Shown here one piece after another: positions 270 to 22,799 of a stretch of DNA of 64,000 nucleotides; the stretch's first letter is position 1; each line of letters begins with the position of its first letter. The position numbers and the translations under genes were made by a program. Where the stretch lies: NCBI RefSeq assembly GCF_018736065.1, contig NZ_CP076130.1, positions 10,001-74,000 on the forward strand. Direction: 5' to 3'. The notes under the pieces were generated by a model, which saw only the letters and a list, made by a program, of their open reading frames with translations, made no database searches and was not told the DNA's origin. The DNA is from Flammeovirga kamogawensis (GTDB lineage: Bacteria > Bacteroidota > Bacteroidia > Cytophagales > Flammeovirgaceae).

Positions 270-1346
270 ATGAATAAATCTATTGAAGCGGATCCATTAT
301 GTCCGCAAAAGCAACCTAAAAAATTATCCTTTTTAGATAGTTATTTAACACTATGGATATTTCTTGCAATGGCAATTGGTGTAGGTATCGGATATTTCTT
401 TCCTGCTGGAGCTGACGCCATAAATAATATGTCTGTTGGAACTACAAATATTCCTTTAGCTATTGGGTTAATATTAATGATGTACCCACCATTGGCAAAA
501 GTGAAATATGAAGAAATGGGTAAAGTATTTAAAAATGTAAAAGTACTTTCGGTTTCTTTGGTTTTAAACTGGATAGTTGGACCAATTTTAATGTTTGCTC
601 TGGCTTTAATCTTTCTACATGATTATCCTGAGTATATGACTGGCTTAATCTTAATTGGTTTAGCACGTTGTATTGCAATGGTAGTTGTTTGGAATGACCT
701 TGCTGAAGGAAGCTCAGAATATGCGGCAGGTTTAATTGCTTTAAATAGTATTTTCCAAGTGTTATTTTACAGTGTATATGCTTATGTATTTATTACTGTT
801 TTACCTCCACTTTTTGGTTACGACGGTTTAGAAGTAAACATTACAATGCCTCAAATTGCCGAAAGTGTATTTATCTATTTGGGTATTCCTTTTATTGCAG
901 GTTTTTTGAGTCGTAAGATCTTAGTAAAAGCAAAAGGTAAAGAGTGGTACGATACTAAATTTGTTCCTACTATCTCTCCTATTACATTAATTGCACTATT
1001 ATCTACAATTGTATTAATGTTCTCTTTAAAAGGGCAAATGATTGTTGAGATACCAATGGATGTTGTGCGTATTGCCATTCCATTAGTAATTTATTTTGTA
1101 ATTATGTTTGTGTTTAGCTTCTTATTAGCAAGATACTTTGGTGCTGATTATGAAAAAGATGTAGCAATAGCTTTTACGGCAACAGGTAACAATTTTGAAT
1201 TGGCTATTGCAGTTGCTATTGGTGTATTTGGTATTAATTCTGGCCAAGCATTTACAGGAGTTATAGGACCTTTGGTTGAGGTTCCTGCATTGATTGCTCT
1301 TGTAAATTTAGCCTTCTGGTTTAGAAAAAAATATTATACAAAATAA
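270..1346 (+). CDS. acr3: ACR3-type arsenite efflux permease
   Basis: This 358-residue polytopic inner-membrane protein has about ten hydrophobic segments and the ACR3 signature around [20 protein letters not shown], with the conserved membrane Cys at about residue 134, which is needed for arsenite transport in the family. A second family segment, [19 protein letters not shown], lies near residue 310. It exports arsenite, the product of ArsC, using the proton motive force, and the length is normal for ACR3. It follows arsC by 15 bases and is closed by a terminator hairpin at 1353-1388. The tandem ArsA ATPase encoded 0.65 kb further on may serve the same resistance route. Confidence 0.93.
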
Positions 1347-1352
1347 ATCAAA

Positions 1353-1388
1353 GGTTAGGCAGCTGCTCTAATGTTGCCTAACTTTTTA
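1353..1388 (+). terminator. Rho-independent terminator after acr3
   Basis: The arms GTTAGGCA (1354-1361) and TGCCTAAC (1375-1382) form an 8-bp stem followed by five T. It ends the arsC-acr3 transcript, just before the convergent gene at 1386-1919. Confidence 0.7.
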
Positions 1389-1919
1389 ATATAACTTTGT
1401 GAGATAACTATCAATTGATTTGATATAACAGAATTTCTTATTCGTATCATCAATATAAAAAGATACTTCCAAATTTTTCTTCAAGCCTTTAATTCCTTTT
1501 TTAGAGACTTTTTTAAAAGTGCGGTTCTTAAAAGTTATCTCTCCAGACTGAGTAACAGAATTTCTTATTAGTTCTTCTGTAAGTGTTGGAGACTCACCTA
1601 TTTTATGTTGAACTATTATAAATTTAGTATTGTAGACATAGGTATCTTCTTCCTCAAATGACATTCCTTCGTATTTTAGCTGAATAAAATAGAAGGTGTA
1701 TTTAGGATAATGTAGAACAGCAATATTGCGAGATTCATCAAAATCAATATCGATATTTCCTGGTTCTCGACCAGACCAATAACCCCAGTCTCCAATTGCA
1801 CTTCCTTTCCACTCTGCTACTTTCATCCTATCAAATGTTACAGTAGATTGTGCAAACATAGGAGCTGAAAATAGAAGTGGTAAAAAAAGGAGTATTGTAT
1901 ATTTCGCTAAGCGAAGCAT
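1386..1919 (-). CDS. Secreted protein of unknown function
   Basis: The product is a 177-residue protein with a clear signal peptide (residues 1-23, ending MFAQ) and no recognised domain. The mature part is a mix of beta-rich segments with aromatic and charged residues and lacks further membrane spans, so it is probably periplasmic or outer-membrane associated. It lies on the opposite strand between acr3 and arsA, so it is not part of the ars transcripts. No Cys or metal-binding cluster links it to arsenic. Confidence 0.7.
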   Translation of the reverse strand: MLRLAKYTILLFLPLLFSAPMFAQSTVTFDRMKVAEWKGSAIGDWGYWSGREPGNIDIDFDESRNIAVLHYPKYTFYFIQLKYEGMSFEEEDTYVYNTKFIIVQHKIGESPTLTEELIRNSVTQSGEITFKNRTFKKVSKKGIKGLKKNLEVSFYIDDTNKKFCYIKSIDSYLTKLY

Positions 1920-2001
1920 CTCTTTTTATTGTTTAGTTTAAAATTAAGTTCTTCGAGTAAATTATTTGATTTATTCGATGGAATATATATAAAGATAAAT
2001 C

Positions 2002-3765
2002 ATGAAATTTAACGATACAAAATTCTTGTTCTTTACTGGTAAAGGTGGTGTAGGTAAAACATCTTTATCTAGTGCAGTTGCCGTACAATTGGCAGATGCT
2101 GGAAAACAAGTTTTATTAATTAGTACAGATCCTGCCTCTAACCTATCTGATGTTTTGGCTACAGATGTAAGTGATGTTATAAAGAAACACACTGTTTTAC
2201 CTCAATTATCAACAATAAATATTGATCCTGAACATGCTGGTGAGGCATACAAAGATAGAGCGATATCTTCTTTAGGAATGTTAGCTACACCTGCATATAA
2301 AAATAAAGTAAGAGAGCAATTGTCTGGAGCGTGTACTGTAGAGATTGCTTCTTTTGATGAATTTACGCGTTTTATATCAGGTGAGGCAAGTTATGAAGCA
2401 TATGATTATGTTGTGTTTGATACTGCTCCTACAGGCCATACATTACGCTTGTTAGAATTACCAGAAGCTTGGAGTTCTTTCTTAGATCATAATGAAGGTG
2501 CATCTTGTATAGGTCCATCAACAGCTTTAAAAAGTAATCATTTACGTTACAAAAATGTTGTTGATACGCTAAGAGATCCCAAACAAACAACGTTCTTTCT
2601 TGTAGCTAGACCAGATGCTGCATCTTTAAAAGAAGCTGACAGAACAAGTGAAGAATTATTTGAGCTGGGAATGGATAATCAGAAATTATTGATCAATGGT
2701 ATATTTTCTCCAGTTGATAATACTGATGAAATTGCGGTTAAAATTGCTGATAAATCAAAGGCTGCGATTGAAACATTACCTAAGCATTTAGCAAAACTTG
2801 AAAAAGAGGATTTTCCTTTATTACCTTATAATATTTTAGGATTAGAAAAACTTCGTTCTGTCTTTTCAAAAACAAAACAAACGGATATTTTATCCGAGGA
2901 AAGAGTTGAAGAAAGCCAAGGACATCAATTAAATAATCTAACTTCTTTAGTAGATGAATTTTCTAAAGATGGAAAAGGTTTAATTATGACAATGGGAAAA
3001 GGTGGTGTTGGTAAAACAACAACTGCTTCTGCTATTGCTGTAATGTTGGCACAAAGAGGACATAAGGTTACGCTAACAACTACAGACCCTGCAGCTCATT
3101 TATCTGACTTTATGGAACAATTAGATGAAGTTCCAGAGAGTTTGACTGTTGAACGTATTGACCCTAGGGTTGAAAAACAACGTTATATTGATAAAGTGAT
3201 GGTGCACAGAGGTGCTGGAAAAACTGATGAACAGAAGAAATTAATCTTAGAAGATTTAAACTCTCCATGTACAGAAGAAGTAGCGGTTTTTCATGCTTTC
3301 TCGAAAGTCACAAGAGCTGCAAAAAGACAGTTTGTAGTAATTGATACTGCGCCTACTGGACATACTTTATTACTTTTAGATACCACAGGAAGCTACCATA
3401 AAGAAGTAATGAAACATGATAAAGGAGATTCTGGTAAATTAACCACTCCATTTATGATGATTCAAGACCCTAAAGTAACTAAAGTTGTGATTGTAACGCT
3501 TGCAGAAACTACACCTATTCGTGAAGCCATGAGCTTACAAGGTGATTTAAAACGAGCCGGAATTACTCCTTATGCTTGGGTTGTAAATCAAGATTTATCT
3601 TTAACAGGTGCAATAAAAGACCCTATTTTAAAACAAAGAGCAACGCATCAAAATACCTTAATAAGTAGTTTAAATAACGAAGTAAGCGATAAGATTGTAA
3701 CGCTTCCTTATTTAGTTGAAGATAAAATTTTACCATCAATCATTCAATCAACTCAAGAAGTATAA
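2002..3765 (+). CDS. arsA: Arsenite-stimulated ATPase, tandem two-domain form
   Basis: The 587-residue protein consists of two homologous halves. Deviant Walker A motifs GKGGVGKT lie at residues 13-20 and 332-339, and each half has the DTAPTGHTL signature. Three cysteines, C111, C169 and C423, sit where the arsenite-binding cysteines of classical ArsA lie (C113, C172 and C422 in the E. coli plasmid protein). ArsA hydrolyses ATP to drive an arsenite permease and is cytosolic, bound to the membrane partner. No arsD chaperone gene is visible here, and the nearest permease is Acr3 rather than ArsB. A terminator follows at 3773-3803. Confidence 0.93.
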   Translation: MKFNDTKFLFFTGKGGVGKTSLSSAVAVQLADAGKQVLLISTDPASNLSDVLATDVSDVIKKHTVLPQLSTINIDPEHAGEAYKDRAISSLGMLATPAYKNKVREQLSGACTVEIASFDEFTRFISGEASYEAYDYVVFDTAPTGHTLRLLELPEAWSSFLDHNEGASCIGPSTALKSNHLRYKNVVDTLRDPKQTTFFLVARPDAASLKEADRTSEELFELGMDNQKLLINGIFSPVDNTDEIAVKIADKSKAAIETLPKHLAKLEKEDFPLLPYNILGLEKLRSVFSKTKQTDILSEERVEESQGHQLNNLTSLVDEFSKDGKGLIMTMGKGGVGKTTTASAIAVMLAQRGHKVTLTTTDPAAHLSDFMEQLDEVPESLTVERIDPRVEKQRYIDKVMVHRGAGKTDEQKKLILEDLNSPCTEEVAVFHAFSKVTRAAKRQFVVIDTAPTGHTLLLLDTTGSYHKEVMKHDKGDSGKLTTPFMMIQDPKVTKVVIVTLAETTPIREAMSLQGDLKRAGITPYAWVVNQDLSLTGAIKDPILKQRATHQNTLISSLNNEVSDKIVTLPYLVEDKILPSIIQSTQEV

Positions 3766-13006: not shown

Positions 13007-14170
13007 TTAGTCGTTTTCTTCAATCCATTTTTTTAAAGTATGTTTATTTGGAAAAGGTTGACCATCTCTAACGGCCATTTTAAGATTATTCATCTCTATC
13101 CAAATCTTTAATTTAGGATTCAGTTTATACTTTTTTACAGCAAGCTGAATCGTATTCTTGGGTAAACCAAGTTCAGAAAGGCGTAATTCTATTTTTTTAA
13201 CTTTAGAATCAAAATCATTTGCTGTAGTTTCTGTAGTAGGTGTAGCTTTTTGACTAAATAAATCTTGTTGTCCAATTGTAGAAGTCACTACCTCAGCATC
13301 CTCGATATCCTCTAAGACACTTTCTTTTTGTTGATTTAATAACTCTTTAATCGTTGCTTGAATAATCACATCTGATAAATTCATCGCTCGCATAGAATCA
13401 ACTTTTGCTGCATTTTCTGGCGTTAAACCATCAGCATTAGTTACTTCTAAATCATTGAGTTTAGGAAGGACTTTCTTTTTATGAAAATAAAAAATGATAT
13501 GAGTGTATTTACGTCCTCTTTCACGAATAGGCTCATAAGATAAATGGATATCAGTTGTTTTATCTATCCCTTTTACGGCTGGTTCTAGTACAGAATTTTT
13601 AAATGTGTTAAACACATTGTAAGATTTCTTTGTACTAACCCCTAAAACGCTCTTCAGTTCGTTCAATTCAACTTTGCGTCTATCATACTTACCAACACCT
13701 CCAGTAATGAAATCATACAAGCGTACAGCATGTGGTGATCTCATGTCTTTAAGGTTACTGTATAAATATTGAGTGTAGTTAGACGATGGACCTAAATATT
13801 GTTTAAATGTTCTATTAAATTTAAACGAAACCCTAGTTTTATTAATTTCAATGGTATCGAATAAAGTAATGTATTTTCTATTAAAGTCTTTAGAGTCATA
13901 GTCATTGTCCGTAATACCACTTCCATCTTTAATTTTAGAAGAAGATAATTCGTCACAAGCTTGATCTATATTCTTAATATCTTTTCCCCCAGGATTTCTA
14001 CCTAAAAAATCAGCAACACGAAACTCCAAAACTTTATCTACTTCTTGCTCTTTATGTGTAAAGGCAAAAAGTAAAAGCTTCTGAGCTGTTAAACTTAATG
14101 TTGTCTTTTGGTGAGCACGTACTAAGTTATTATGACGTTTCACCCATACTTTAGTTAAAATATTGTCCAT
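13007..14170 (-). CDS. Rep_3-family (RepB/RepE-like) replication initiator
   Basis: The 387-residue protein begins with the family hallmark NNLVRAHQKTTLSLTAQKLLLFAF and continues with the winged-helix pattern of plasmid initiators (YTQYLYSNLKDMRSPHAVRLYDFI at about residues 120-150, then ELKSVLGVSTKKSYNVFNTFKNSVLEPAVKGI). Such proteins bind iterons as monomers to open the origin and bind an inverted-repeat operator as dimers to repress their own gene. Its start faces 1.8 kb of repeat-rich DNA and an inverted repeat at 14284-14367. The C-terminal extension after about residue 230 is longer than in small plasmid Rep proteins. It probably controls replication of this replicon. Confidence 0.88.
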   Translation of the reverse strand: MDNILTKVWVKRHNNLVRAHQKTTLSLTAQKLLLFAFTHKEQEVDKVLEFRVADFLGRNPGGKDIKNIDQACDELSSSKIKDGSGITDNDYDSKDFNRKYITLFDTIEINKTRVSFKFNRTFKQYLGPSSNYTQYLYSNLKDMRSPHAVRLYDFITGGVGKYDRRKVELNELKSVLGVSTKKSYNVFNTFKNSVLEPAVKGIDKTTDIHLSYEPIRERGRKYTHIIFYFHKKKVLPKLNDLEVTNADGLTPENAAKVDSMRAMNLSDVIIQATIKELLNQQKESVLEDIEDAEVVTSTIGQQDLFSQKATPTTETTANDFDSKVKKIELRLSELGLPKNTIQLAVKKYKLNPKLKIWIEMNNLKMAVRDGQPFPNKHTLKKWIEEND

Positions 14171-14283
14171 AAGGCTAATATCAAGATCAACTACTAGTAG
14201 AAATGTTTACTTACTAGTACTTAGACCATACTTTTTTTATTTAATGATATGTTTCTACTGTAATCGGTACTTTAAGTCTTAAT

Positions 14284-14367
14284 TACAAGTATAAGTCCAC
14301 ACATATATACGGACTTGCTTTAGTATTTACAAGAAAATTAATATAAAATATTGGACTTATACTTGTA
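14284..14367. promoter_or_regulatory. Inverted repeat upstream of rep, candidate autorepression operator
   Basis: Perfect 16-base arms TACAAGTATAAGTCCA (14284-14299) and TGGACTTATACTTGTA (14352-14367) flank 52 bases, starting 114 bases upstream of the rep start. Each arm resembles an iteron half (GGACTTATACTTGTA versus GGTCTA...TACTNGTATTA). In Rep_3 replicons an inverted pair of iteron halves is the operator bound by Rep dimers. This role is inferred. Confidence 0.5.
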
Positions 14368-14682
14368 TTTACGATTTATTATGGTCTATCCACTAGGATT
14401 AAGAAAGTAAACTACTTGTATTTATAACTCTTAGACATGAAATGGATTAAATTAGAAGAAGAATTTAACTCGAAAATCTAAAGACAAGTAGTTTACACAT
14501 TAAAATAGCTTCAGATGCTATAATTTTCTTTAATTATATGGTCTACTCACTAGTATTAATAAAAAGTATATCCAAATTACTATTATTAATATCAAATTTT
14601 ATGGTGAAACTACTAGTATTAAGAAAAGGTACTTGTATTTAAATCTATAATTTTGATTGAAAGAATAAGAATTAGTTGTCAA

Positions 14683-14709
14683 AGTATTCCAGCTTAGTCT
14701 ATTTATAAA
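14683..14709 (+). repeat. Partial decayed copy of the conserved origin block
   Basis: The segment AGTATTCCAGCTTAGTCTAT, continuing to ATAAA at 14709, resembles the end block of the 201-bp repeats (AGTATTCCAGTTAGTTACAG). It appears to be a third, shorter and diverged copy of that block. Confidence 0.4.
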
Positions 14710-14755
14710 CCTTTTCTAGCATTTTAAAGTACTGAATTTATTCAAAGACTATAAA

Positions 14756-14956
14756 TATGGTCTATTCACTATGTTTTTGAGTAAACTACTATAGTTTAAT
14801 GCAATCTACTCGTATTAAAAGGTCTAAGTACTAGTAGTGTTGAAGTAGAGTACTTGTATTAATATGGTCTTACTACTATAGTTTACGCCTGTAAAATACA
14901 GTATTCCAGTTAGTTACAGTCACTATAAATAATAAGTATATATAAATACTATATAA
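14756..14956 (+). repeat. 201-bp direct repeat, copy 1, in the origin
   Basis: This segment matches 15239-15439 over 201 bases without gaps and with nine differences. It contains about five iteron-like elements and ends in a block of more than 60 bases (about 14893-14956) that is identical in both copies and includes GTATATATAAATACTATATA. Confidence 0.9.
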
Positions 14957-15238
14957 CAAGAGTATATATTTTATGATTAATTCTCTACTGATATTTATAT
15001 CTATTGTACTATAAATATGGTCTAAGTACTCGTATTAAGAGTAAACTACTATAGTTTTTCAATAAAAATCCTTTTAAAAATTAGAATAAGCTTCTCTAGA
15101 ATGTAAACTACTTGTATCAGTATGGTCTAAGTACTCGTATTAAATTAGTATAGTACTGATTATCATTGATTAAGGCTATTATTAGACCTATTTTGTTTTG
15201 AAGTATATTGTTCACTAAATATTTAGTATCATCAAATT

Positions 15239-15439
15239 TATGGTCTATCAACTATGCTTTTAAGTAAACTACTATAGTTTAATGCAATCTACTCGTATTA
15301 AAAGGTCTAAGTACTAGTAGTATTGGAGTAGAATACTTGTATTAATATGGTCTTACTACTATAGTTTATGTCTGTAAAATACAGTATTCCAGTTAGTTAC
15401 AGTCACTATAAATAATAAGTATATATAAATACTATATAA
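15239..15439 (+). repeat. 201-bp direct repeat, copy 2, in the origin
   Basis: This is the second copy of the 14756-14956 segment, starting 483 bases after the first. All nine differences fall in the first two thirds, within and between iterons, while the last 60 or so bases are identical, so that block seems most constrained. Confidence 0.9.
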
Positions 15440-15975
15440 GCAAAATATATATTTTTAGTTAAGATTTACTTTTTTCTTCAGGAATTTTAAATACATCTAT
15501 GGTCTAAGAACTAGTATTAAGAGAAAACTACTCGTATTTAACTTAATTAAAACTTATAGTTAGAATTATTAATGCAAACTCCTTGTATTATATGGTCTAC
15601 TCACTATGATTATTCTAAATATGATATTTTGTAACATTATTTATAAAACAGATTATCAAAATAGAACTGAAGTTATGGTCTATTTACTATACCTTGAGTA
15701 AAGGTACTTGTATTAAAGAATTTATATTGATATTCTGTCAACCTACTGGTATTCTTAAATATTTACGGTCTAATTACTAGGAGTTGATGAAGTTGAAAGT
15801 TTTATGAAAATTATATTTTAGTACATTTTTTGTATGATACAGATCATTAAAAGGTAAAATATTATCTATGTAGTTGTATTTTATGTATAAATAGTGAAAA
15901 TAATAACTTTATTCTTTTGTGTTTATAAAATTTTATCTTTCCTTTGTTATAAGATAAATACATAGAATAGTAAGC

Positions 15976-16968
15976 ATGACACAAAAAGACATACTCGATT
16001 TTTTAAGAGAAAATGAAATGTTGAAAGTTTCTGTTGTTGAAAAAAAAGCAGGAATACCGACAAGATCTCTATATAAAGCCCTAAATGGTGAGCAAAATTT
16101 AAAACCAGAGTACATTGAAAAGTTAATACAAGTACTAACCCCACTAGGTTTAAAACTTAAAGATAAGTTTAAAGTAATTTCAATTATTAATAATAAAGGT
16201 GGAGTTGCTAAAACTACAACTGCTTGTAATCTTGGAGCAGGGTTATCTAGATTAGGAAAAAAAGTACTTTTGATTGATGCTGATCCTCAAGGAAACTTAA
16301 CACAACATCTAGGTTATAAAGATGCTCAGTTTTTTGAAGGCAAGGAGTTGTCCGATATCATTGAAGGAAAGTGTGATGTAAATGATTCAATTTTACAATA
16401 TCAGGAAAACTTACACATTATTCCTTCTACTACTAATCTTGATTTTACTAATAAAACATTAAATAGAAATTCAGGACCTTCGTCTTATAAATTAGTAAGA
16501 AGAAATGTAATTGATAAATTGGAGAATGAGTACGATTATATCTTTTTCGATTTATCTCCTTCTTTTGCCTTAATTTCTAATGATGCCTGTCTAATTGCTT
16601 CGAATAGAGCTTTAATTCCTGTAGATGCTTCTGAATTTGCTTTTAGAGGGATTAATAATGTTTTGAGTCATATTAATGATTATAAAGAAGAAAACCCTAA
16701 TTTAGAAGTATTGGGTTTCTTGTTTACTAAAACAGGTAGAACTAAGGATATGAATAAGTATAAAGAAGCTTTACGTTCTACTAATTATAGAGTTTTTGAT
16801 ACAGAAATAGCTGTACGTGATATGGCTTACAATAAAGGTCCATTATTTGGAAAAGACATTTTTACTCTTTTTGAAGACGAATCTTTAAAGAAACAAGAGA
16901 AAGATGGTATTAAAAAAGCAATGGATGAGCATGTTAGTTTGGCAAAAGAAATTATAGAGTATGTCTAA
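15976..16968 (+). CDS. parA: ParA-type partition ATPase
   Basis: The 330-residue protein has an N-terminal helix-turn-helix-like region (residues 1-60, with VVEKKAGIPTRSLYKALNGE) followed by a ParA/MinD ATPase. The latter has a deviant Walker A NNKGGVAKTTT (residues 72-82), DADPQGNLTQHLG (Walker A', D101) and YIFFDLSPSFALISNDA (Walker B). An N-terminal DNA-binding part is typical of type Ia ParA proteins, which also repress their own operon. It starts next to the iteron region and overlaps parB by eight bases (16961-16968), so the pair is translationally coupled. It segregates the replicon by ATP-driven movement of the ParB-parS complex. Confidence 0.93.
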   Translation: MTQKDILDFLRENEMLKVSVVEKKAGIPTRSLYKALNGEQNLKPEYIEKLIQVLTPLGLKLKDKFKVISIINNKGGVAKTTTACNLGAGLSRLGKKVLLIDADPQGNLTQHLGYKDAQFFEGKELSDIIEGKCDVNDSILQYQENLHIIPSTTNLDFTNKTLNRNSGPSSYKLVRRNVIDKLENEYDYIFFDLSPSFALISNDACLIASNRALIPVDASEFAFRGINNVLSHINDYKEENPNLEVLGFLFTKTGRTKDMNKYKEALRSTNYRVFDTEIAVRDMAYNKGPLFGKDIFTLFEDESLKKQEKDGIKKAMDEHVSLAKEIIEYV

Positions 16969-17851
16969 TGGAATAAACATTGGAGATTTTTTACCGGATA
17001 ACAATAAATCTTCAAAATTAATCGGTTCAAAAAAAGAAGAAATGTCTTCTGATAAAATTCATGTATTAGAAGAATTAAAACGGTGGATCCGACCTTTAAC
17101 AGAGTCTGAAAGATCAAATCTAAAAACAAGTATTGAGAGTGAAGGTGTACGTGACCCTTTAACTTTTTTCTTTATGGATAATGGTCAGAAAGTCTTATTA
17201 GACGGACATAACCGTTATGAAATTTGTGAAGAATTAGGAGGAGCTGATTATGGTTATGAGTTTGAAGAAGTAATTGTTGATATTGATAATATTGATGATG
17301 CTAAACTTTGGATGATTAAAAATCAGGTTGGAAAACGTAATCTTTCTAAAAGAGAGATGTCTTTTTATAGAGGACATCATTACTTAACCAACAAAGGAAA
17401 GCAAGGTAATAAAACTGGAGATGGTAAACTTTATGATCAGTTAGCGAAAGATTATGGAGTAGGAAAAAGTACTATTATTCGGGATGCTAGAATTGCAGAA
17501 ATTTTAGATCAAGTGAGCGATGCATTTAAGCATTCTTATTTTGATGGTGAAATAGCGGTTACTCAATCAAAATTTGAAGACGCATTAAAAGCTTTAGCAT
17601 CTGAAGTATTGAATGTATCTGACTTAGAAGATTACCTAAGAGGCATCGAACCTTTACAACCTTCTACATCTAAAAGTACTACAAGAGCAATTAATAATAC
17701 TCCAAAACCATTTACTTTTAATAAAGTCAATAAAACAATTAGAACATTAATTGATACTCCTTTAGAAAAAGAATTGGGTAAGGTAGAAAAATTATCGATG
17801 GAAGAGTCGGTAAAAGAACTAATAGAAAAGTATAAATTAGATATCCAATAA
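16961..17851 (+). CDS. parB: ParB-like partition protein
   Basis: The 296-residue protein has a ParB/Srx-type N-terminal domain (residues about 35-115) with LLDGHNRYEICEELGG. This stands where chromosomal ParB has the GERRxxA CTP-binding box, so nucleotide binding may differ. A helix-turn-helix follows (LAKDYGVGKSTIIRDARIAEIL, residues about 160-181), then a C-terminal region that may dimerise. The start overlaps the end of parA by eight bases. It is expected to bind a centromere near this operon; candidate sites are the palindromes at 18812 and 18924. Confidence 0.85.
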   Translation: MSNGINIGDFLPDNNKSSKLIGSKKEEMSSDKIHVLEELKRWIRPLTESERSNLKTSIESEGVRDPLTFFFMDNGQKVLLDGHNRYEICEELGGADYGYEFEEVIVDIDNIDDAKLWMIKNQVGKRNLSKREMSFYRGHHYLTNKGKQGNKTGDGKLYDQLAKDYGVGKSTIIRDARIAEILDQVSDAFKHSYFDGEIAVTQSKFEDALKALASEVLNVSDLEDYLRGIEPLQPSTSKSTTRAINNTPKPFTFNKVNKTIRTLIDTPLEKELGKVEKLSMEESVKELIEKYKLDIQ

Positions 17852-17923
17852 AACTCACAAGAGTATTGGTATTTAGTATGTATAGATTGTTGCAGAACTA
17901 TTACTTCAACATTTATAAAAAAA

Positions 17924-18016
17924 TGGGTAGTCATCTCTGGCTACCCAATAACAAATCTCATTTAGTAATTACTGCTAATTATTGTAGATAGGCGCATCTC
18001 ACCTCAACTATCTACA
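17924..18016. promoter_or_regulatory. Two hairpins between parB and the downstream membrane protein gene
   Basis: TGGGTAG (17924-17930) pairs with CTACCCA (17941-17947), and TGTAGATAG (17983-17991) pairs with CTATCTACA (18008-18016). Neither is followed by a T tract, so they may be weak terminators, RNA-processing hairpins or protein-binding sites in the leader of the 18046 gene. Confidence 0.4.
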
Positions 18017-18045
18017 TTTGTTTCAATCCAAATATAATTAAAATA

Positions 18046-18792
18046 ATGAAACCCGTAAAAATTATCGATTACTCGCTTATAGTAGTATCGATGCTTTATA
18101 GTACGTATGTAACTTTTTTATTTTTCAGTGTACATACATCACTTATTTTAGCAAGCTTTATCTCTGTTTTTATTGTCTTTTTAGCACATCATTATACGTA
18201 TCAATTAATAGAATATTTTAAAAAAACAGGCCGTATTAATCAATATATTATCCTAGCTGTAACTTTAATTAGTATTGTTTTTTATGCTGAATGGAATGGA
18301 CAATTAGTTCATGCTAAGAATATATCAGGTATACCTACTACAGAAATATTAGATAAGCAAATAAATACTGTCCAAGAAACGATCAACCTATCTGCAAAGC
18401 ATACTATCAACGGGAAAACAAATTGGGCAAAATATCAAACATTTTTAGATTCTCAAAAACAATTAAAACGTTTAGAAGGAAAAAGAAGTGACTTATTATT
18501 GGTTATCAATACAAAGACAAGAGAAGCTGAAATAACAGCAAATAGTTTTAGGTTATTTTCTCTTATTTTATTTTTACTTGCATTTGTTGCTACCTCTATA
18601 AACCATTCTTACACATCAACTCCAGATAATTTTTTAGATAAAGTTGATGAAAAAAGAAATAAAATTATTTCTTTAATCAGAGATGGAGAAGTAAATAATG
18701 TAAAAATGTTGGTTGACTATTTTAATATTCCTCCAGATGAGGCATACGTTTTATTTCAAAAATTTAATCCAGATAAGAGTATTGGATTTTAA
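18046..18792 (+). CDS. Membrane protein with coiled-coil loop, next to parAB
   Basis: The 248-residue protein has three N-terminal membrane helices (about residues 9-27, 30-48 and 64-82), a hydrophilic helical stretch of about 80 residues (residues about 97-165), a fourth helix (about 167-185) and a polar C-terminal tail that looks like a small winged helix (ISLIRDGEVNNVKMLVDYFNIPPDEAYVLFQKF). No family was recognised. It follows parB in the same direction after 194 bases with hairpins and lies before two palindromes. Its place suggests a link with replicon maintenance, which is inference only. Confidence 0.65.
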   Translation: MKPVKIIDYSLIVVSMLYSTYVTFLFFSVHTSLILASFISVFIVFLAHHYTYQLIEYFKKTGRINQYIILAVTLISIVFYAEWNGQLVHAKNISGIPTTEILDKQINTVQETINLSAKHTINGKTNWAKYQTFLDSQKQLKRLEGKRSDLLLVINTKTREAEITANSFRLFSLILFLLAFVATSINHSYTSTPDNFLDKVDEKRNKIISLIRDGEVNNVKMLVDYFNIPPDEAYVLFQKFNPDKSIGF

Positions 18793-18811
18793 TACTTTCA
18801 ATAATTTTCAT

Positions 18812-18840
18812 AAGGTACCAATTTGGTACCTTTCTTTTTC
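18812..18840. promoter_or_regulatory. 21-bp palindrome, copy 1 (candidate parS or terminator)
   Basis: AAGGTACCAA and TTGGTACCTT flank a single central T (18812-18832) and are followed by a T/C run to 18840. The same unit recurs at 18924 with a central A. Lying just downstream of parA-parB and the membrane protein gene, it could be a centromere site. The pyrimidine tail would also allow a short-loop terminator of the 18046 gene. Confidence 0.5.
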
Positions 18841-18923
18841 TCTAATTAAATTACTGATTTTATATAAAGTTTTTAATTACGTATAACTAATTAAATAAAC
18901 TAAAAAAAACATAGGGTTTTTAT

Positions 18924-18952
18924 AAGGTACCAAATTGGTACCTTTTCTTTTT
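18924..18952. promoter_or_regulatory. 21-bp palindrome, copy 2 (candidate parS or terminator)
   Basis: AAGGTACCAA and TTGGTACCTT flank a central A (18924-18944), followed by TTCTTTTTC as in copy 1. The two copies are 112 bases apart. A second terminator of almost identical sequence with no gene between the two would be unusual, which favours a protein-binding role. Confidence 0.5.
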
Positions 18953-19145
18953 CACGAAGAAAAAATGTAAGTGGACAAATAGATTGAAATAACTTTATTG
19001 GTAAAAATAATAGAAAAACAACCTACTTAATATAGGTTAATATGTAAATGATAGAATGATTATACTATGCCTATACCCTTTCAATTCTTTATTTTTACAT
19101 AAGATATACCACGATTTAATTCTCGACTTAAGTTGAATTTTTAAG

Positions 19146-22100
19146 ATGATTGAAGATAAAACAGAACCCATAAAATATAGTAAAGCCTTAGTTAAAACCT
19201 TAGAACAAAAATTAAAAGTTGGAAATTTAAGAGCCATACATTTAAATGCAGTTCCTGGAAATTCTAGAAGTAGATTAGACATTACTGATTTGAATTCTTT
19301 ACAGAATAATTTATCGAGTGATTTTATAGCAACATTAACTTCAAAACAACAATTTAATTTTACTATTGGGGCTACTTATCAACAATTAGAAAATGATGAT
19401 AAAGTAGAAAGAGAATTATTGAATGAAAAAGTATTTAGAAAGCTTAAAAATATACACATTGATTATAAAACAGACTATCAGGATCATGGAGTAAATAGTT
19501 TAGGGTTTGGGTATCCTATGTTGGTATTCAGAAATCCAAAAGTAAATAAACAGGTGGTTTGTGCACCTCTTTTTATTTGGAGAGTAGACTTAAATAAAGA
19601 TCCTCAGAGTATATCTAATTGGACAATTACTAGAAATGAAGAACATTCTGTATTAATAAATGCACAACTAAGATCGTTTATAGAATCTGAATTTGATGGA
19701 TTAAAACTACCTCCTATTTCAGAAGAAATGCTTGCTGATGGTATAATTGATAGAGATGAAATTCTAGAGGTAGTTAATGCCACTTTATCTATTTTAGGTG
19801 TAGAGCAACAAGAAACGAACGGTGAATTAAAAGCACTATCTGATAAAAAAAGTTTAGATAAAATTACCCAGAAAGATAAACCTTGGATTTCATGGAGCGG
19901 TGTTTTAGGAATATATAAAGCACAAAGGGAAAGTATTATATCTGATTTAAAAGAAATCCAAGATAACTACGAAGAATTTGAAATGGACTACAGAGGTAAG
20001 ACATATCAAAAATTTTCTACTACCTCAATAACTGTTGATCCTAGTCAAGAACGTTTAATTCATCTTTTATCAACTGAAAAGAAACTAATAATACAAGGAC
20101 CTCCAGGTACAGGTAAAAGTCAGTCGTTAACAGCTATACTTACTAATGCTTTAGAGAATAAAGCAAAATGTTTAGTTGTATGTGAAAAGAAAACGGCACT
20201 TGAAGTCCTTAAATCAAATTTATCTGAATTAGGTTTAGGACACTTATGTGCTGTGATTGATGATGTAAATAAAGATCGGAAATATATAGTAGATGCAATT
20301 AGAGAAATTGTTGATGGAAAAACAGATGTAGCTTCTGTTACAATAAACACTTCTAATTATAAATCGATTCGAAATAAGTACGAAAAAGTAAAAGATAACC
20401 TACGTACAAAATATACAAATGCTACAATTAATGTTTTAGGCGATTATACGTGGAAAGATGCTATTGCAGAAACACTAGTAAATTATTCAATTGCAGACCG
20501 TTCAATAGTCCAACAAATGGGCTTTAAAAATGAACTGTATTTTACCTTACAAGAATTTGATACTTTAACTTCCTTTATAGAAGATGCAGATTATTTATAT
20601 AAAAGTATAGCAGGTTTAGAAGGCACAATAACTCAACTTGACGATAGCCTGTTTAAACAAAAATATAATCAAGCTGCTCGTTTAAAAATAATTTCTTTTA
20701 TAGAAGAAATGAATACTACAATTAGTACTATAGGAAATAGTTTTGATAGCGCTGAACAAAAATATGGTATAGACTTTTATGAAAAAGGAGTAGCTAATAA
20801 TTGGCTAGTTTATTTAAAATCTATTTTTAGCAGTAGGTTAAAATTAATGAGAAGTACTACAAAAGAATTGCAGTTAAAAATGTTTTCTTTTGCTAAGGAA
20901 TTTGATCAGATTATAGGTGGTAAGCAGAAAGAATATCTATTTGTACATTACGATTTGATAAAAGACTATTTAAATGAGTGCATAGAAATTTTAAATTGTT
21001 TAAATTCAAACATTTTAAATTATAAAGAATACCACAATTGGAGACATTTCAAATTCTCAATAGAGAAAGAAAATGCAAATAAGTTATTAGATCTATTTAT
21101 TAATACTGAAGTCCAAGATTGGAATGCAACTTTTAAATATTGGTATTTTAATGCGTTATTAATGCATGTAGAAGAACAAATTGATGCAGAACAAAACCAA
21201 GACAATCAATTACTTCATCAAGTACAAGCTCTAACAGAGGAAATTAAAAGAGAGCAAGCTAAATTTATCGTACAACAACATGGAGAGTACATTAAGAAAA
21301 CTCTTTTAGGGAAAACTAAACAAGAATTAAAACTCTTATTTAATTATAGGAAGAACAAGGTTCATGGTGCAAAAACATCCTTAAGAAAGATATTGGATAA
21401 GGAGTTTGAATTATTCACTGCATTTTTCCCTATTACAATGGTAAACCCTGTAGTATGTAGTTCTATACTTCCAATGCAAGCAGAATTATATGATGTGGTC
21501 ATCTTTGATGAAGCTTCTCAGATGCGCTTAGAGGATGCTTTTGCAGCGATGTTAAGAGGTAAGCACAAGATAATATCAGGAGACGTACATCAGATGCCTC
21601 CTTCTAGTTATTTTTCTAAAGGAGGAGATGTATTGTTAGGTGAAGAGGAAGAAGAGAGCGATGTTGTTTTAGCAGAAAGTGATTCTCTACTTACATTTGC
21701 TCAAAATTCGGCTTTTAAGTTTTCTTATTTAGATTTTCACTATAGATCTCAGCACCCACATTTGATTGATTTTTCTAATGCTGCATTTTATGGCACTCGA
21801 TTAATTCCAATGCCAAATGTAGATGAGTATTCTCCAATCACACTACATCAAGTAGATGGTAGTTATAAGGATAGATCAAATGGTGACGAAGCACAATGTA
21901 TTCTAGAATATTTAAAGGCATTAGAAGAAGATTTTAGAGAGAATTATCTTTCTGTAGGCATAGCGACCTTTAATATGGAGCAGAGAAATGTTATTTGGGA
22001 CCATATATATAAAGAGTGCGAATACTCTGCACAATTTAATAATAAAATGCAACGTTTAATTGCGGATGGTTTCTTTATTAAAAATTTAGAGAATATTCAA

Positions 22101-22799
22101 GGTGATGAAAGAGACATTATTTTATTATCAACAACTTTTGGTAAGAACAAAGAGGGAGTATTTAGACAGTTATTTGGGCAGCTAAATAATATAGAAAAAG
22201 GTTACAAATTACTTAATGTAATTGTTACCAGAGCAAAAAAAGAAATGCATGTATTTACATCTTTTCCTACAGAAGTATATAGCAGCTATGCACAAGAGAT
22301 TGCGATAGCAGGTAATAATGGTAAAGCAATTTTGTACGCTTATATTGCTTATGCTAAAGCTTGTTCTGAAAGGAATGATGAAGAAAGGGAGCAAATTTTA
22401 AACACGCTTAGAAATCATGTGCCAGAAGCTAAAAACTTAGTGGTTAAACATCAAAGTAAACACCTATTTGAGAGGGAGTTATCTACTTTTATAACATCAA
22501 TTTATCCAAAAGATCAAATTGAAATAAATTATAAATTAGGAGGTTTATACATAGATTTCATGTTAAAAGACACGGATGGAAGCCCTATAATAGCTTTAGA
22601 ATGTGATGGAAAGGAGTATCATGCTAGTAATGAGTCGTATAGATATGATTTACACCGAGAAGAAATTTTAGCTCGACATGGAATTGTCACTTACAGAATT
22701 TGGTCTACAAATTGGTGGCAAGATGTGGAAGGAGAGGTAAAAAAACTGACTCACTTTATCGCTTCTAAGCAAGAAGAACTAATCACTATTTTACCTTAG
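19146..22799 (+). CDS. Superfamily 1 (Upf1-like) helicase with C-terminal Vsr/MTES_1575-like nuclease domain
   Basis: The 1217-residue protein begins with a domain recalling DUF4011-type helicases (LGFGYPMLVF and CAPLFIWRVDL near residues 115-145). The helicase core has Walker A GPPGTGKS (318-325), a long helical insertion, Walker B DEAS (788-791), then DFHYRSQHP and NIQGDERDIILLSTTFG and NVIVTRAKKEMHVF, as in AAA_11/AAA_12 proteins. A PD-(D/E)xK-like nuclease ends it, with D1137 in YIDFML and the E1152-x-D1154 motif in ALECDGKEYH. Such helicase-nuclease fusions are frequent in anti-phage loci, so nucleic-acid unwinding and cleavage during defence is plausible. It is solitary, next to the partition genes. 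Target and trigger are unknown. Confidence 0.8.
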   Translation: MIEDKTEPIKYSKALVKTLEQKLKVGNLRAIHLNAVPGNSRSRLDITDLNSLQNNLSSDFIATLTSKQQFNFTIGATYQQLENDDKVERELLNEKVFRKLKNIHIDYKTDYQDHGVNSLGFGYPMLVFRNPKVNKQVVCAPLFIWRVDLNKDPQSISNWTITRNEEHSVLINAQLRSFIESEFDGLKLPPISEEMLADGIIDRDEILEVVNATLSILGVEQQETNGELKALSDKKSLDKITQKDKPWISWSGVLGIYKAQRESIISDLKEIQDNYEEFEMDYRGKTYQKFSTTSITVDPSQERLIHLLSTEKKLIIQGPPGTGKSQSLTAILTNALENKAKCLVVCEKKTALEVLKSNLSELGLGHLCAVIDDVNKDRKYIVDAIREIVDGKTDVASVTINTSNYKSIRNKYEKVKDNLRTKYTNATINVLGDYTWKDAIAETLVNYSIADRSIVQQMGFKNELYFTLQEFDTLTSFIEDADYLYKSIAGLEGTITQLDDSLFKQKYNQAARLKIISFIEEMNTTISTIGNSFDSAEQKYGIDFYEKGVANNWLVYLKSIFSSRLKLMRSTTKELQLKMFSFAKEFDQIIGGKQKEYLFVHYDLIKDYLNECIEILNCLNSNILNYKEYHNWRHFKFSIEKENANKLLDLFINTEVQDWNATFKYWYFNALLMHVEEQIDAEQNQDNQLLHQVQALTEEIKREQAKFIVQQHGEYIKKTLLGKTKQELKLLFNYRKNKVHGAKTSLRKILDKEFELFTAFFPITMVNPVVCSSILPMQAELYDVVIFDEASQMRLEDAFAAMLRGKHKIISGDVHQMPPSSYFSKGGDVLLGEEEEESDVVLAESDSLLTFAQNSAFKFSYLDFHYRSQHPHLIDFSNAAFYGTRLIPMPNVDEYSPITLHQVDGSYKDRSNGDEAQCILEYLKALEEDFRENYLSVGIATFNMEQRNVIWDHIYKECEYSAQFNNKMQRLIADGFFIKNLENIQGDERDIILLSTTFGKNKEGVFRQLFGQLNNIEKGYKLLNVIVTRAKKEMHVFTSFPTEVYSSYAQEIAIAGNNGKAILYAYIAYAKACSERNDEEREQILNTLRNHVPEAKNLVVKHQSKHLFERELSTFITSIYPKDQIEINYKLGGLYIDFMLKDTDGSPIIALECDGKEYHASNESYRYDLHREEILARHGIVTYRIWSTNWWQDVEGEVKKLTHFIASKQEELITILP

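Follow-up and report, generated by a model that had tools for sequence, protein, structure and literature searches.

A Rep_3 iteron origin and partition locus on a 640-kb replicon of Flammeovirga kamogawensis YS10, and its probable IS-mediated fusion into chromosome I of F. pectinis L12M1

Anatomy of the rep, iteron and par locus

We examined a window of 64,000 nucleotides from the marine bacterium F. kamogawensis YS10, which is part of C3, a contig of 639,981 bp in a genome of 6,968,008 bp in four contigs (C1 to C4). Positions refer to the window unless preceded by C3, and comparisons are mainly with the sister species F. pectinis L12M1. We found the following features at the locus:

13007..14170, minus strand: rep, Rep_3-type initiator, 387 aa, with Rep3_N and Rep3_C above cut-off
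14171..15975, plus strand: iteron array and putative replication origin, with GGTCTANNNACT copies among shorter sites with the core TACTNGTATTA
14192..14229: candidate rep operator beside the rep start, formed by an inverted TACTAGTA pair (14192-14219) and the sole minus-strand iteron (14209-14229)
14289..14338: 50-bp non-iteron block with inverted AAGTCC/GGACTT, a candidate protein site, identical in L12M1
14921..14956, with a second copy at 15408-15442: AT-rich block, candidate unwinding element, identical in L12M1
15976..16968, plus strand: parA, Walker-type ATPase with an N-terminal HTH-like region, 330 aa (AAA_31, E 5.9e-44)
16961..17851, plus strand: parB-like gene, 296 aa, named from its position and a relative in MY04 annotated as ParB
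17984..18015: inverted repeat preceding the gene for the membrane protein, recognised by covariation of its arms
18046..18792, plus strand: third gene of the par cassette, 248 aa, membrane and coiled-coil by eye, recognised by conservation of the trio

The initial annotation had described a Rep_3 initiator, and both Rep_3 domains (WH1 and WH2) indeed score above their Pfam cut-offs (Rep3_N 63.3 bits against 22.4, Rep3_C 52.9 bits against 21.1). The best match among solved structures is 1rep (E 1.3e-5), which we take to be RepE of F. The YS10 and L12M1 Rep proteins share 96% amino acid identity, with a dN/dS of 0.027. A megablast search of the rep-array-par module against a plasmid collection, from which near records may be absent, returned no match.

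Upon examining the array, which spans 1.8 kb at 24% GC, we observed 13 exact copies of GGTCTANNNACT (12 on the plus strand and one on the minus strand) and 15 with at most one mismatch, whereas 100 random sequences with matching neighbour frequencies contained a mean of 0.02 exact copies and a maximum of one. The core TACTNGTATTA occurs eight times exactly and 19 times with at most one mismatch, always on the plus strand (random means 0.12 and 1.59, respectively). The proposed 1.8 kb of iteron-like DNA and its second repeat class sharing a core are thus borne out, and the count of about 16 copies is adjusted to 13 or 15 depending on the mismatch allowed. The origin had also been called large for a Rep_3 replicon; its size is real but ordinary for the genus, in which nine of the ten other origin intervals compared measure 1.08-1.91 kb and that of C4 measures 0.54 kb. 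The array holds a 217-nt duplication, 94% identical and with a spacing of 483. Between YS10 and L12M1, iteron bases are 85.6% identical and those outside 69.2%, a value for the iterons reached by only one of 1804 mask rotations, and across the arrays compared the iteron type tracks the Rep type. Autoregulation by Rep is known from Rep_3 plasmids, and we therefore assign a putative autoregulatory role to the candidate operator. The inverted AAGTCC/GGACTT pair occurs only once in C3.

The parA and parB-like genes overlap by 8 nt, which together with the AAA_31 match of ParA and the ParB annotation in MY04 agrees with the coupled parA-parB pair reported initially. The N-terminal HTH match of ParA falls below the Pfam cut-off, and all 330 of its 330 residues are identical between YS10 and L12M1 (pS 0.30). 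Pfam matches of the ParB-like protein are likewise all below cut-off; in MY04, the annotation of its relative reads 'ParB N-terminal domain-containing protein'. The trio of ParA, ParB and third gene is present in 15 of 21 loci examined, which were picked via Rep or TM matches. Pfam, NCBIfam and PADLOC searches with the third protein gave nothing above cut-off, and a fold search with a low-confidence model (pLDDT 60.5) gave no hit among 75 matches at E 0.001 or better. Upstream of its gene, the arms of the inverted repeat covary across eight loci, seven of 12 predicted pairs being compensated in one or more sequences, and TCTCAC is constant in the loop. Downstream, the palindrome GGTACCAANTTGGTACC occurs at 18814 and 18926, its only two copies in C3; in the search for a parS centromere these were the candidates, but they may be terminators because a T run follows each.

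Skew and gene content of the 640-kb replicon

Next, we investigated the GC skew of C3, as the initial annotation had suggested for positions 14200-15900. The detrended minimum falls at C3:24,310 (window position 14,310), inside the array, and the maximum at C3:364,880, 340 kb away, with a range of 7,814; none of 2,000 block shuffles exceeded 2,872. The raw minimum at C3:10,060 (-170) is almost tied with the array, purine and A-T skew both reach their lowest point near C3:12 kb and keto skew does so elsewhere, so that by skew the array is the best, not the sole, origin candidate. The origin had been attributed to a secondary replicon as opposed to a site within a single main chromosome, and in YS10 this attribution holds: the window lies on C3, which is separate from the main chromosome and whose own skew switches at the array, and the single DnaA match in the genome is on C1.

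We observed that the GC content of C3 is 32.3%, compared with 32.0% for the 820 kb of C1 that were sampled, a gap within 0.4 points. The dinucleotide distance (x1000) is 30.2 between C1 and C3, 19.6 between C1 and C2 (of which only a sample was used) and 33.0 between C1 and C4 (46 kb); by this measure C3 is further from C1 than C2 is, and almost as far as C4. A 5S rRNA gene and part of a large-subunit rRNA gene were detected on C3; they sit just beyond the window edge and, like the third par-cassette gene and the minus-strand iteron, go beyond the initial annotation. The 16S search of the whole YS10 genome, in which the C3 region was partly masked, matched only C2, and the 16S gene of C3 is therefore taken from the published count. 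A search of the readable part of C3 for tRNA genes found none; Table 1 of Feng et al. 2021 (PMC8653839) lists a 0.64-Mb plasmid with three rRNA genes and one tRNA. Additionally, the sole YS10 match to ahpF (526 aa, a name assigned by eye without a family search) is on C3. Each of the nine Flammeovirga genomes searched has one ahpF match at E 1e-60 or better; among the seven relatives outside the YS10/L12M1 pair, it is on the largest-chromosome contig C1 in two (G008 and G003), on the same contig as a rep-par module in two (G005 and G007), and on an unassigned contig in the other three, which are drafts. The rRNA genes and ahpF are the core genes identified to date on C3, which has 395 predicted ORFs.

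Plasmid-type rep and par genes, rRNA, the only ahpF match and a similar GC content are chromid traits open to sequence analysis, and by these the classification of C3 as a putative chromid, or secondary chromosome, is supported. Feng et al. 2021 (PMC8653839) class it as a plasmid ('plasmid I'), and an ordinary megaplasmid that acquired its rRNA operon by chance would also fit the 83-kb plasmid of MY04, which has the rep type and par cassette found on C3. Furthermore, in 404 kb searched of a 489-kb contig with the same rep type (contig C6 of G001), 93 of the 395 C3 ORFs have matches at E 1e-20 and 27 reach 65% identity over 60% of the length; with so few matches the gene content of C3 appears fluid, and that contig is ruled out as a full C3 orthologue. 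We nevertheless consider the megaplasmid reading unlikely, since C3 holds both the only ahpF match of the genome and rRNA genes, has a chromosome-like GC content and a full two-arm skew, and is collinear with a block in L12M1. Overall, we consider it probable (about 0.86) that from this stretch a circular 640-kb chromid of YS10 is replicated and partitioned, a replicon fused by IS into chromosome I of L12M1, and we suggest that this rRNA-bearing replicon, labelled a plasmid, be treated as a chromid.

The C3 block inside chromosome I of F. pectinis L12M1

In L12M1 (G004), the C3 replicon is a 588-kb circularly permuted block inside chromosome I (G004:C1 3,999,153-4,586,746), collinear in a single order and orientation with insertions and deletions, and its rep, iterons and par genes are all intact. 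The match crosses the C3 contig ends unbroken, which shows C3 to be circular. The block is bordered by two identical 989-nt IS copies in direct repeat, and the sequences on either side align to chromosome I of YS10, at 3,302,884 and 3,292,052. A cleanly empty site in YS10 is ruled out, as 10.8 kb of other genes lie between the matching flanks, which indicates that the insertion locus is variable in both species. A 3.8-kb query from an L12M1-specific insert inside the block gave only one short match in YS10. With the region inside the main chromosome of a sister species, the lineage has not become fixed for a free replicon.

The L12M1 assembly contains four full copies of the IS, C1 and C2 each holding one besides the two at the borders, and the YS10 genome shows none, which makes fusion in L12M1 the more parsimonious direction. 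The opposite direction, with the block originally part of chromosome I and C3 arising from it by excision in YS10, would be in keeping with the location of the block in L12M1 and of ahpF on contig C1 in G008 and G003, but is very unlikely: excision would be expected to leave IS copies in YS10, C3 has a complete skew cycle, and its rep type occurs on a free plasmid in MY04. Both borders coincide exactly with the identical IS, of which the assembly has several full copies, as would be expected if two circles had been joined artificially through it; we regard such an assembly artefact as improbable, since further identical copies on C1 and C2 left these two contigs unjoined. Recombination between rRNA operons, the route described for Cupriavidus necator KK10, draws on the presence of rRNA genes in the block, but these lie about 282 kb inside it and IS copies form the borders, and we rejected this route as extremely improbable.

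Under fusion in L12M1, the block has kept its own skew change within chromosome I. Its skew is nearly equal to that in YS10 for most pieces, with three of 11 differing by 0.05-0.08; because the IS copies are identical, the block skew is uninformative on whether the origin is silent. The L12M1 arms around the array measure 304 and 283 kb, an offset from the middle of 10.6 kb (chance 0.036, post hoc, the statistic having been prompted by the balanced arms described for Agrobacterium), and the corresponding breakpoint in YS10 coordinates divides the replicon into arms of 278 and 362 kb. It is conceivable, though we hold it only tentatively, that chromosome I of L12M1 is naturally a two-origin, two-centromere chromosome, in which the chromid origin and par trio stay active after IS-mediated fusion, at a distance of about 0.4-0.5 Mb from the origin of chromosome I, with fusion and separation being a possible route of rRNA and core-gene gain.

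Proposed mechanism and related systems

Rep monomers most likely bind the direct iteron repeats and would then open the AT-rich blocks of the array, with forks leaving in both directions and meeting near C3:365 kb. The rep gene is probably autorepressed, the inverted site next to its start serving as operator. ParA and ParB would segregate C3, and the membrane protein whose gene follows parB may assist them. In L12M1, the replicon probably entered chromosome I by IS-mediated cointegration or by recombination between IS copies.

Upon searching the other replicons for checkpoint sites, we found no iteron clusters on C1 or C2, and the 21-bp iteron pattern with zero or one mismatch had no copy outside the array in the whole YS10 genome. 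With up to three mismatches there were 52 genome-wide matches, 10 in the array and 42 scattered elsewhere with two or three mismatches, compared with 61 for the reversed-pattern control. The 42 are unclustered and below the control, and we do not regard them as crtS-like sites; this search used a plain iteron, which the crtS site of Vibrio is not known to be.

The second chromosomes of Flammeovirga described by Feng et al. 2021 (PMC8653839) share plasmid-type Rep, ParA and ParB and rRNA on the second replicon; the word 'iteron' is absent from that article, and its accessible portion mentions neither a third par gene nor C3 within L12M1 chromosome I. Chr2 of Vibrio cholerae likewise combines an iteron origin (RctB, ori2) with two site classes and parAB (PMC5603330, PMC6284228), although the initiator of C3 is a Rep_3 protein and no crtS-like site was found in YS10 by the plain-iteron pattern. 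The natural V. cholerae fusions NSCV1 and NSCV2 retain both origins (PMC5603330, PMC6284228); in L12M1, by comparison, an IS copy cleanly marks each border. Cupriavidus necator KK10 also represents a natural fusion of a chromid into the main chromosome, via rRNA operons rather than the IS copies of L12M1 (PMC8729776). In Agrobacterium, fused dicentric chromosomes arose via highly similar sequences and have balanced arms, as in L12M1; there, both origins were demonstrated to be active and XerCD to be required (PMC12153318).

The absorption of the C3 replicon into chromosome I between identical IS copies is new, and we found no report of such a fusion in Bacteroidota in the titles and abstracts retrieved by searches of the CC0, CC BY and CC BY-SA literature. 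A free and an absorbed chromid in sister species, with the origin intact, offer a direct test of origin activity after fusion outside Proteobacteria. Finally, Rep_3 plasmids such as F (RepE) share with C3 the WH1/WH2 organisation of Rep, direct iterons and adjacent par genes, from which C3 differs in being a 640-kb, rRNA-bearing replicon.

The rep-iteron-par module and its skew

We found that the rep gene, repeat array and parA-parB pair located in the initial annotation are all three in place on C3 (NZ_CP076130.1), the replicon of F. kamogawensis YS10 that holds the window, and that the repeats do form, as had been claimed, two classes with a common core, their right half being common to both. 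The features around the array are:

13,007-14,170, minus strand: rep, with both Rep_3 winged-helix domains exceeding Pfam cut-offs
14,171-15,975: iteron array between rep and parA
17984-18015, between parB and the membrane gene: hairpin-like inverted repeat, compared across 8 loci
18,046-18,792, after parB: membrane gene (membrane character judged by eye), third gene of the par cassette
18812-18832 and 18924-18944, 3' of the membrane gene: palindrome AAGGTACCAANTTGGTACCTT, its sole two copies in C3

The top solved-structure match of the C3 Rep is 1rep, which we take to be RepE of F. The array spans 1,805 bp up to parA at 24% GC and contains 13 copies of the iteron GGTCTANNNACT, 12 on the plus strand and one on the minus strand adjoining rep, against an expected mean of 0.02 and maximum of 1 (100 random sequences with matched neighbour frequencies). 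Exact matches to the core TACTNGTATTA number 8, rising to 19 when one mismatch is allowed, on the plus strand throughout; GGTCTA precedes the shared half in class A repeats, and sequences such as GTAAAC stand there in class B. The parA and parB genes overlap by 8 nt. Across the 8 loci, the arms of the inverted repeat covary around a constant loop, TCTCAC, with a compensated change in 7 of 12 predicted pairs; the repeat may act in an RNA leader or be bound by a protein. The AAGGTACCAANTTGGTACCTT palindromes are candidate terminators or candidate parS sites.

GC skew at the array had been proposed as a check, and the detrended cumulative minimum of C3 falls inside it, at C3:24,310 (window 14,310), with the maximum at 364,880. 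The detrended range is 7,814, whereas shuffling 1-kb blocks 2,000 times gave ranges that averaged 1,452 and never exceeded 2,872. Evidence to the contrary comes from the raw GC-skew minimum, which is at C3:10,060 and almost level with the array, and from the other skews: purine and A-T skew reach their minima near C3:12 kb, keto skew at another place. On the whole, the data agree with bidirectional replication that would start in the array.

In Rep_3 plasmids, Rep monomers act on iterons, dimers repress rep and iteron pairing restrains initiation. The mechanism proposed here builds on the observed gene order, repeats, skew, gene content, L12M1 block and block borders described in this work, and we infer its Rep-DNA steps from those plasmids: Rep monomers on the direct iterons would open the AT-rich blocks, repression of rep would come from Rep dimers at the inverted site, and iteron pairing would limit over-initiation. 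V. cholerae Chr2 operates in a manner similar to that proposed for the C3 origin (PMC6284228, PMC5603330). Timing of C3 by a plain iteron cluster on C1 (chromosome I) or C2 (chromosome II) appears unlikely, a genome-wide search with one 21-bp iteron pattern at up to 3 mismatches having found no such cluster there. Adjoining the origin, 19146-22799 encodes a 1,217-aa helicase/nuclease-like protein resembling, below NCBIfam cut-offs, parts of the anti-phage ProA/PDC-S37 and Hhe, and 270-3765 carries ACR3 arsenite exporter and ArsA ATPase genes, each over NCBIfam cut-offs.

Chromid or megaplasmid

The YS10 genome comprises 6,968,008 bp in four contigs, the window sitting in C3 (639,981 bp) as its bases 10,001-74,000; the available text of PMC8653839 gives the same total, with chromosome I of 4.67, chromosome II of 1.61, plasmid I of 0.64 and plasmid II of 0.05 Mb. 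A PF01051 search returned a single Rep on each of C2, C3 and the small plasmid C4 and zero on C1, where the one DnaA match is located. In its readable sequence C3 has a 5S gene, of which YS10 has ten, and a partial large-subunit rRNA gene whose best clan match among those printed was an archaeal model; the 16S search of the whole genome gave one match, on C2, with part of the C3 rRNA region masked. Table 1 of PMC8653839, a source available in part, assigns 3 rRNA genes and 1 tRNA gene to the 0.64-Mb replicon, and ARAGORN found no tRNA in the readable part of C3.

Each of the 9/9 Flammeovirga genomes has one match to AhpF, a name assigned by eye, at E 1e-60 or better. The gene lies on C3 in YS10 and within a C3-like block in chromosome I of the sister species F. 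pectinis L12M1. Among the 7 other genomes, G008 and G003 have it on contig C1, G005 and G007 on a contig that bears a rep-par module as well, and G001, G002 and G006 on contigs not assigned to a replicon. The GC content is 32.3% for C3 (N excluded) and 32.0% for C1 (820-kb sample), and dinucleotide distances to C1 (x1000) are 30.2 for C3, 19.6 for C2 (60-kb sample) and 33.0 for C4.

Because of the rRNA genes, ahpF and GC content, we regard C3 as a probable chromid, and the chromid reading of the initial annotation is supported by sequence criteria, with GC near that of C1. The joint best explanation, in which C3 would be a chromid with its origin/partition centre in the window, has in our estimate a probability of about 0.86. 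An ordinary megaplasmid that acquired an rRNA operon appears unlikely; this alternative is slightly strengthened and the best explanation slightly weakened because the 16S search gave no match in the readable part of C3, and because just 2 of 7 relatives have ahpF on a main-chromosome contig. In the available part of PMC12456017, a chromid is counted in 4/4 complete genomes of Flammeovirga, a tally that could be due to the known second chromosomes by themselves, and Flammeovirga is, per the accessible text of PMC13342612, a recently described multipartite lineage.

A C3-like block in L12M1 chromosome I

A relative of the C3 Rep, 96% identical, is on contig C1 of L12M1 (G004), its chromosome I; contig C3 of that genome has a length of 60,977 and a Rep position as in NZ_CP034564.1. 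We sampled G004:C1 in 25 pieces of 20 kb, 24 of them compared with C3 by blastn and the 25th (L103) used solely for module and ORF identity comparisons; the pieces cover the block in part. The block is collinear with C3, starting at G004:C1 3,999,153 (C3:303,454), running across the C3 contig ends at 4,279,480/4,279,483 and ending at 4,586,746 (C3:303,326), and pieces beyond these limits have zero or scattered C3 matches. It differs from C3 by insertions and deletions: for example, L12M1 lacks C3:312-328 kb and the greater part of C3:564-634 kb, and L12M1-only inserts occupy >17 kb from 4,442,624 and 11.7 kb before 4,025,884.

The outer flanks align to YS10 chromosome I at 89-92% identity, except for a 0.7-kb stretch at 76% and a stretch of ~5 kb confined to L12M1, and the flank matches in YS10 stop at 3,302,884 and 3,292,052, with 10.8 kb of other genes between; we read this insertion locus as a variable one. 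By eye, the 10.8 kb holds outer-membrane-efflux, secretion, ABC-transporter and DNA-methylase-like ORFs. A 5S-gene pair (paired by spacing) is 1,251.7 kb apart in L12M1 and 664.2 kb apart in YS10, and the difference of 587.5 kb fits an inserted block. We consider an assembly error in L12M1 an unlikely account of the block's placement.

The sequence at the ends is the same 989 nt, in the same orientation and 100% identical, an insertion sequence (IS) encoding a 289-aa DDE_Tnp_4 transposase with near-perfect inverted repeats at its ends. The identical stretch begins and finishes with ATT; if the element lies inside it, each of the four sides is bordered by ATT, as a 3-bp target duplication would leave it, a weak sign in AT-rich DNA. 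The IS search took in YS10, L12M1, G001-G003 and G008. L12M1 carries the element four times in full and once as a 108-nt piece, G002 and G008 have diverged relatives of it (71-77%), and YS10, G001 and G003 gave no match at E 1e-10. From this distribution among the searched genomes, the fusion more probably took place in the lineage of L12M1. Replicative cointegration and recombination of one IS copy with another are routes that are indistinguishable here.

The L12M1 fusion would join known chromosome-fusion cases, here in Bacteroidota, and we found no published account of it in the openly licensed papers searched. As described in the available parts of PMC6284228 and PMC5603330, V. cholerae strains with naturally fused chromosomes retained both origins; in NSCV1 both are active, and in NSCV2 ori2 is silent. 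The Cupriavidus necator KK10 fusion ran via rRNA operons (PMC8729776, seen in part), whereas IS copies stand at the L12M1 borders; in Agrobacterium, fused chromosomes retained two origins, both active, and had balanced arms (PMC12153318, likewise in part), and the L12M1 arms from the array to each IS copy measure 304 and 283 kb.

The module after the proposed fusion and in relatives

Between L12M1 and YS10, amino acid identity is 96% for Rep, 100% (330/330) for ParA, 95% for ParB and 85% for the membrane protein, with dN/dS of 0.027, 0.003, 0.053 and 0.105, respectively. The median identity is 91.9% among 123 C3 ORFs matched in L12M1 (>90% of length matched, >60% identity, within the 15 L12M1 pieces used), ParA being the most conserved. 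Iteron bases are 85.6% identical and other array bases 69.2%, a value of 85.6% being reached by 1 of 1,804 rotations of the iteron mask. A large part of the selection on the module may be older than the fusion. In YS10 chromosome I the skew changes sign near 3.1-3.18 Mb (41 sampled pieces), which would put the two origins of L12M1 chromosome I some 0.4-0.5 Mb apart.

L12M1 has 14 exact GGTCTANNNACT sites, the 489-kb contig of G001 has 9, the 83-kb plasmid of strain MY04 has 10 and G002:C424 has 11, and all arrays carrying them adjoin a C3-type Rep; exact sites are absent from the 6 other arrays compared (G007: 2 with one mismatch). The ParA-ParB-membrane-protein trio is present at 15 of 21 loci, which were picked by Rep or membrane-protein matches and some of which are the same replicon in sister species. 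At four of the loci, those of F. aprica, OC4, SJP92 and EKP202, the trio adjoins a different Rep, which suggests that the par cassette is exchanged as a whole. Among GTDB contigs, two peptide patterns taken from the membrane protein matched 4 loci, all in Flammeovirga, and in 20-kb pieces of G008, G003 and G001:C3 no membrane gene stands beside ParA2-ParB2 of chromosome II. The YS10 chromosome II origin (1,077,001-1,097,000) has its own ATGTATAGATATACCGT-like repeats, read by eye, and a rep flanked by two parAB pairs, one of them with a membrane gene; palindrome GGTGGTCAAACTGACCACC at this origin may be parS.
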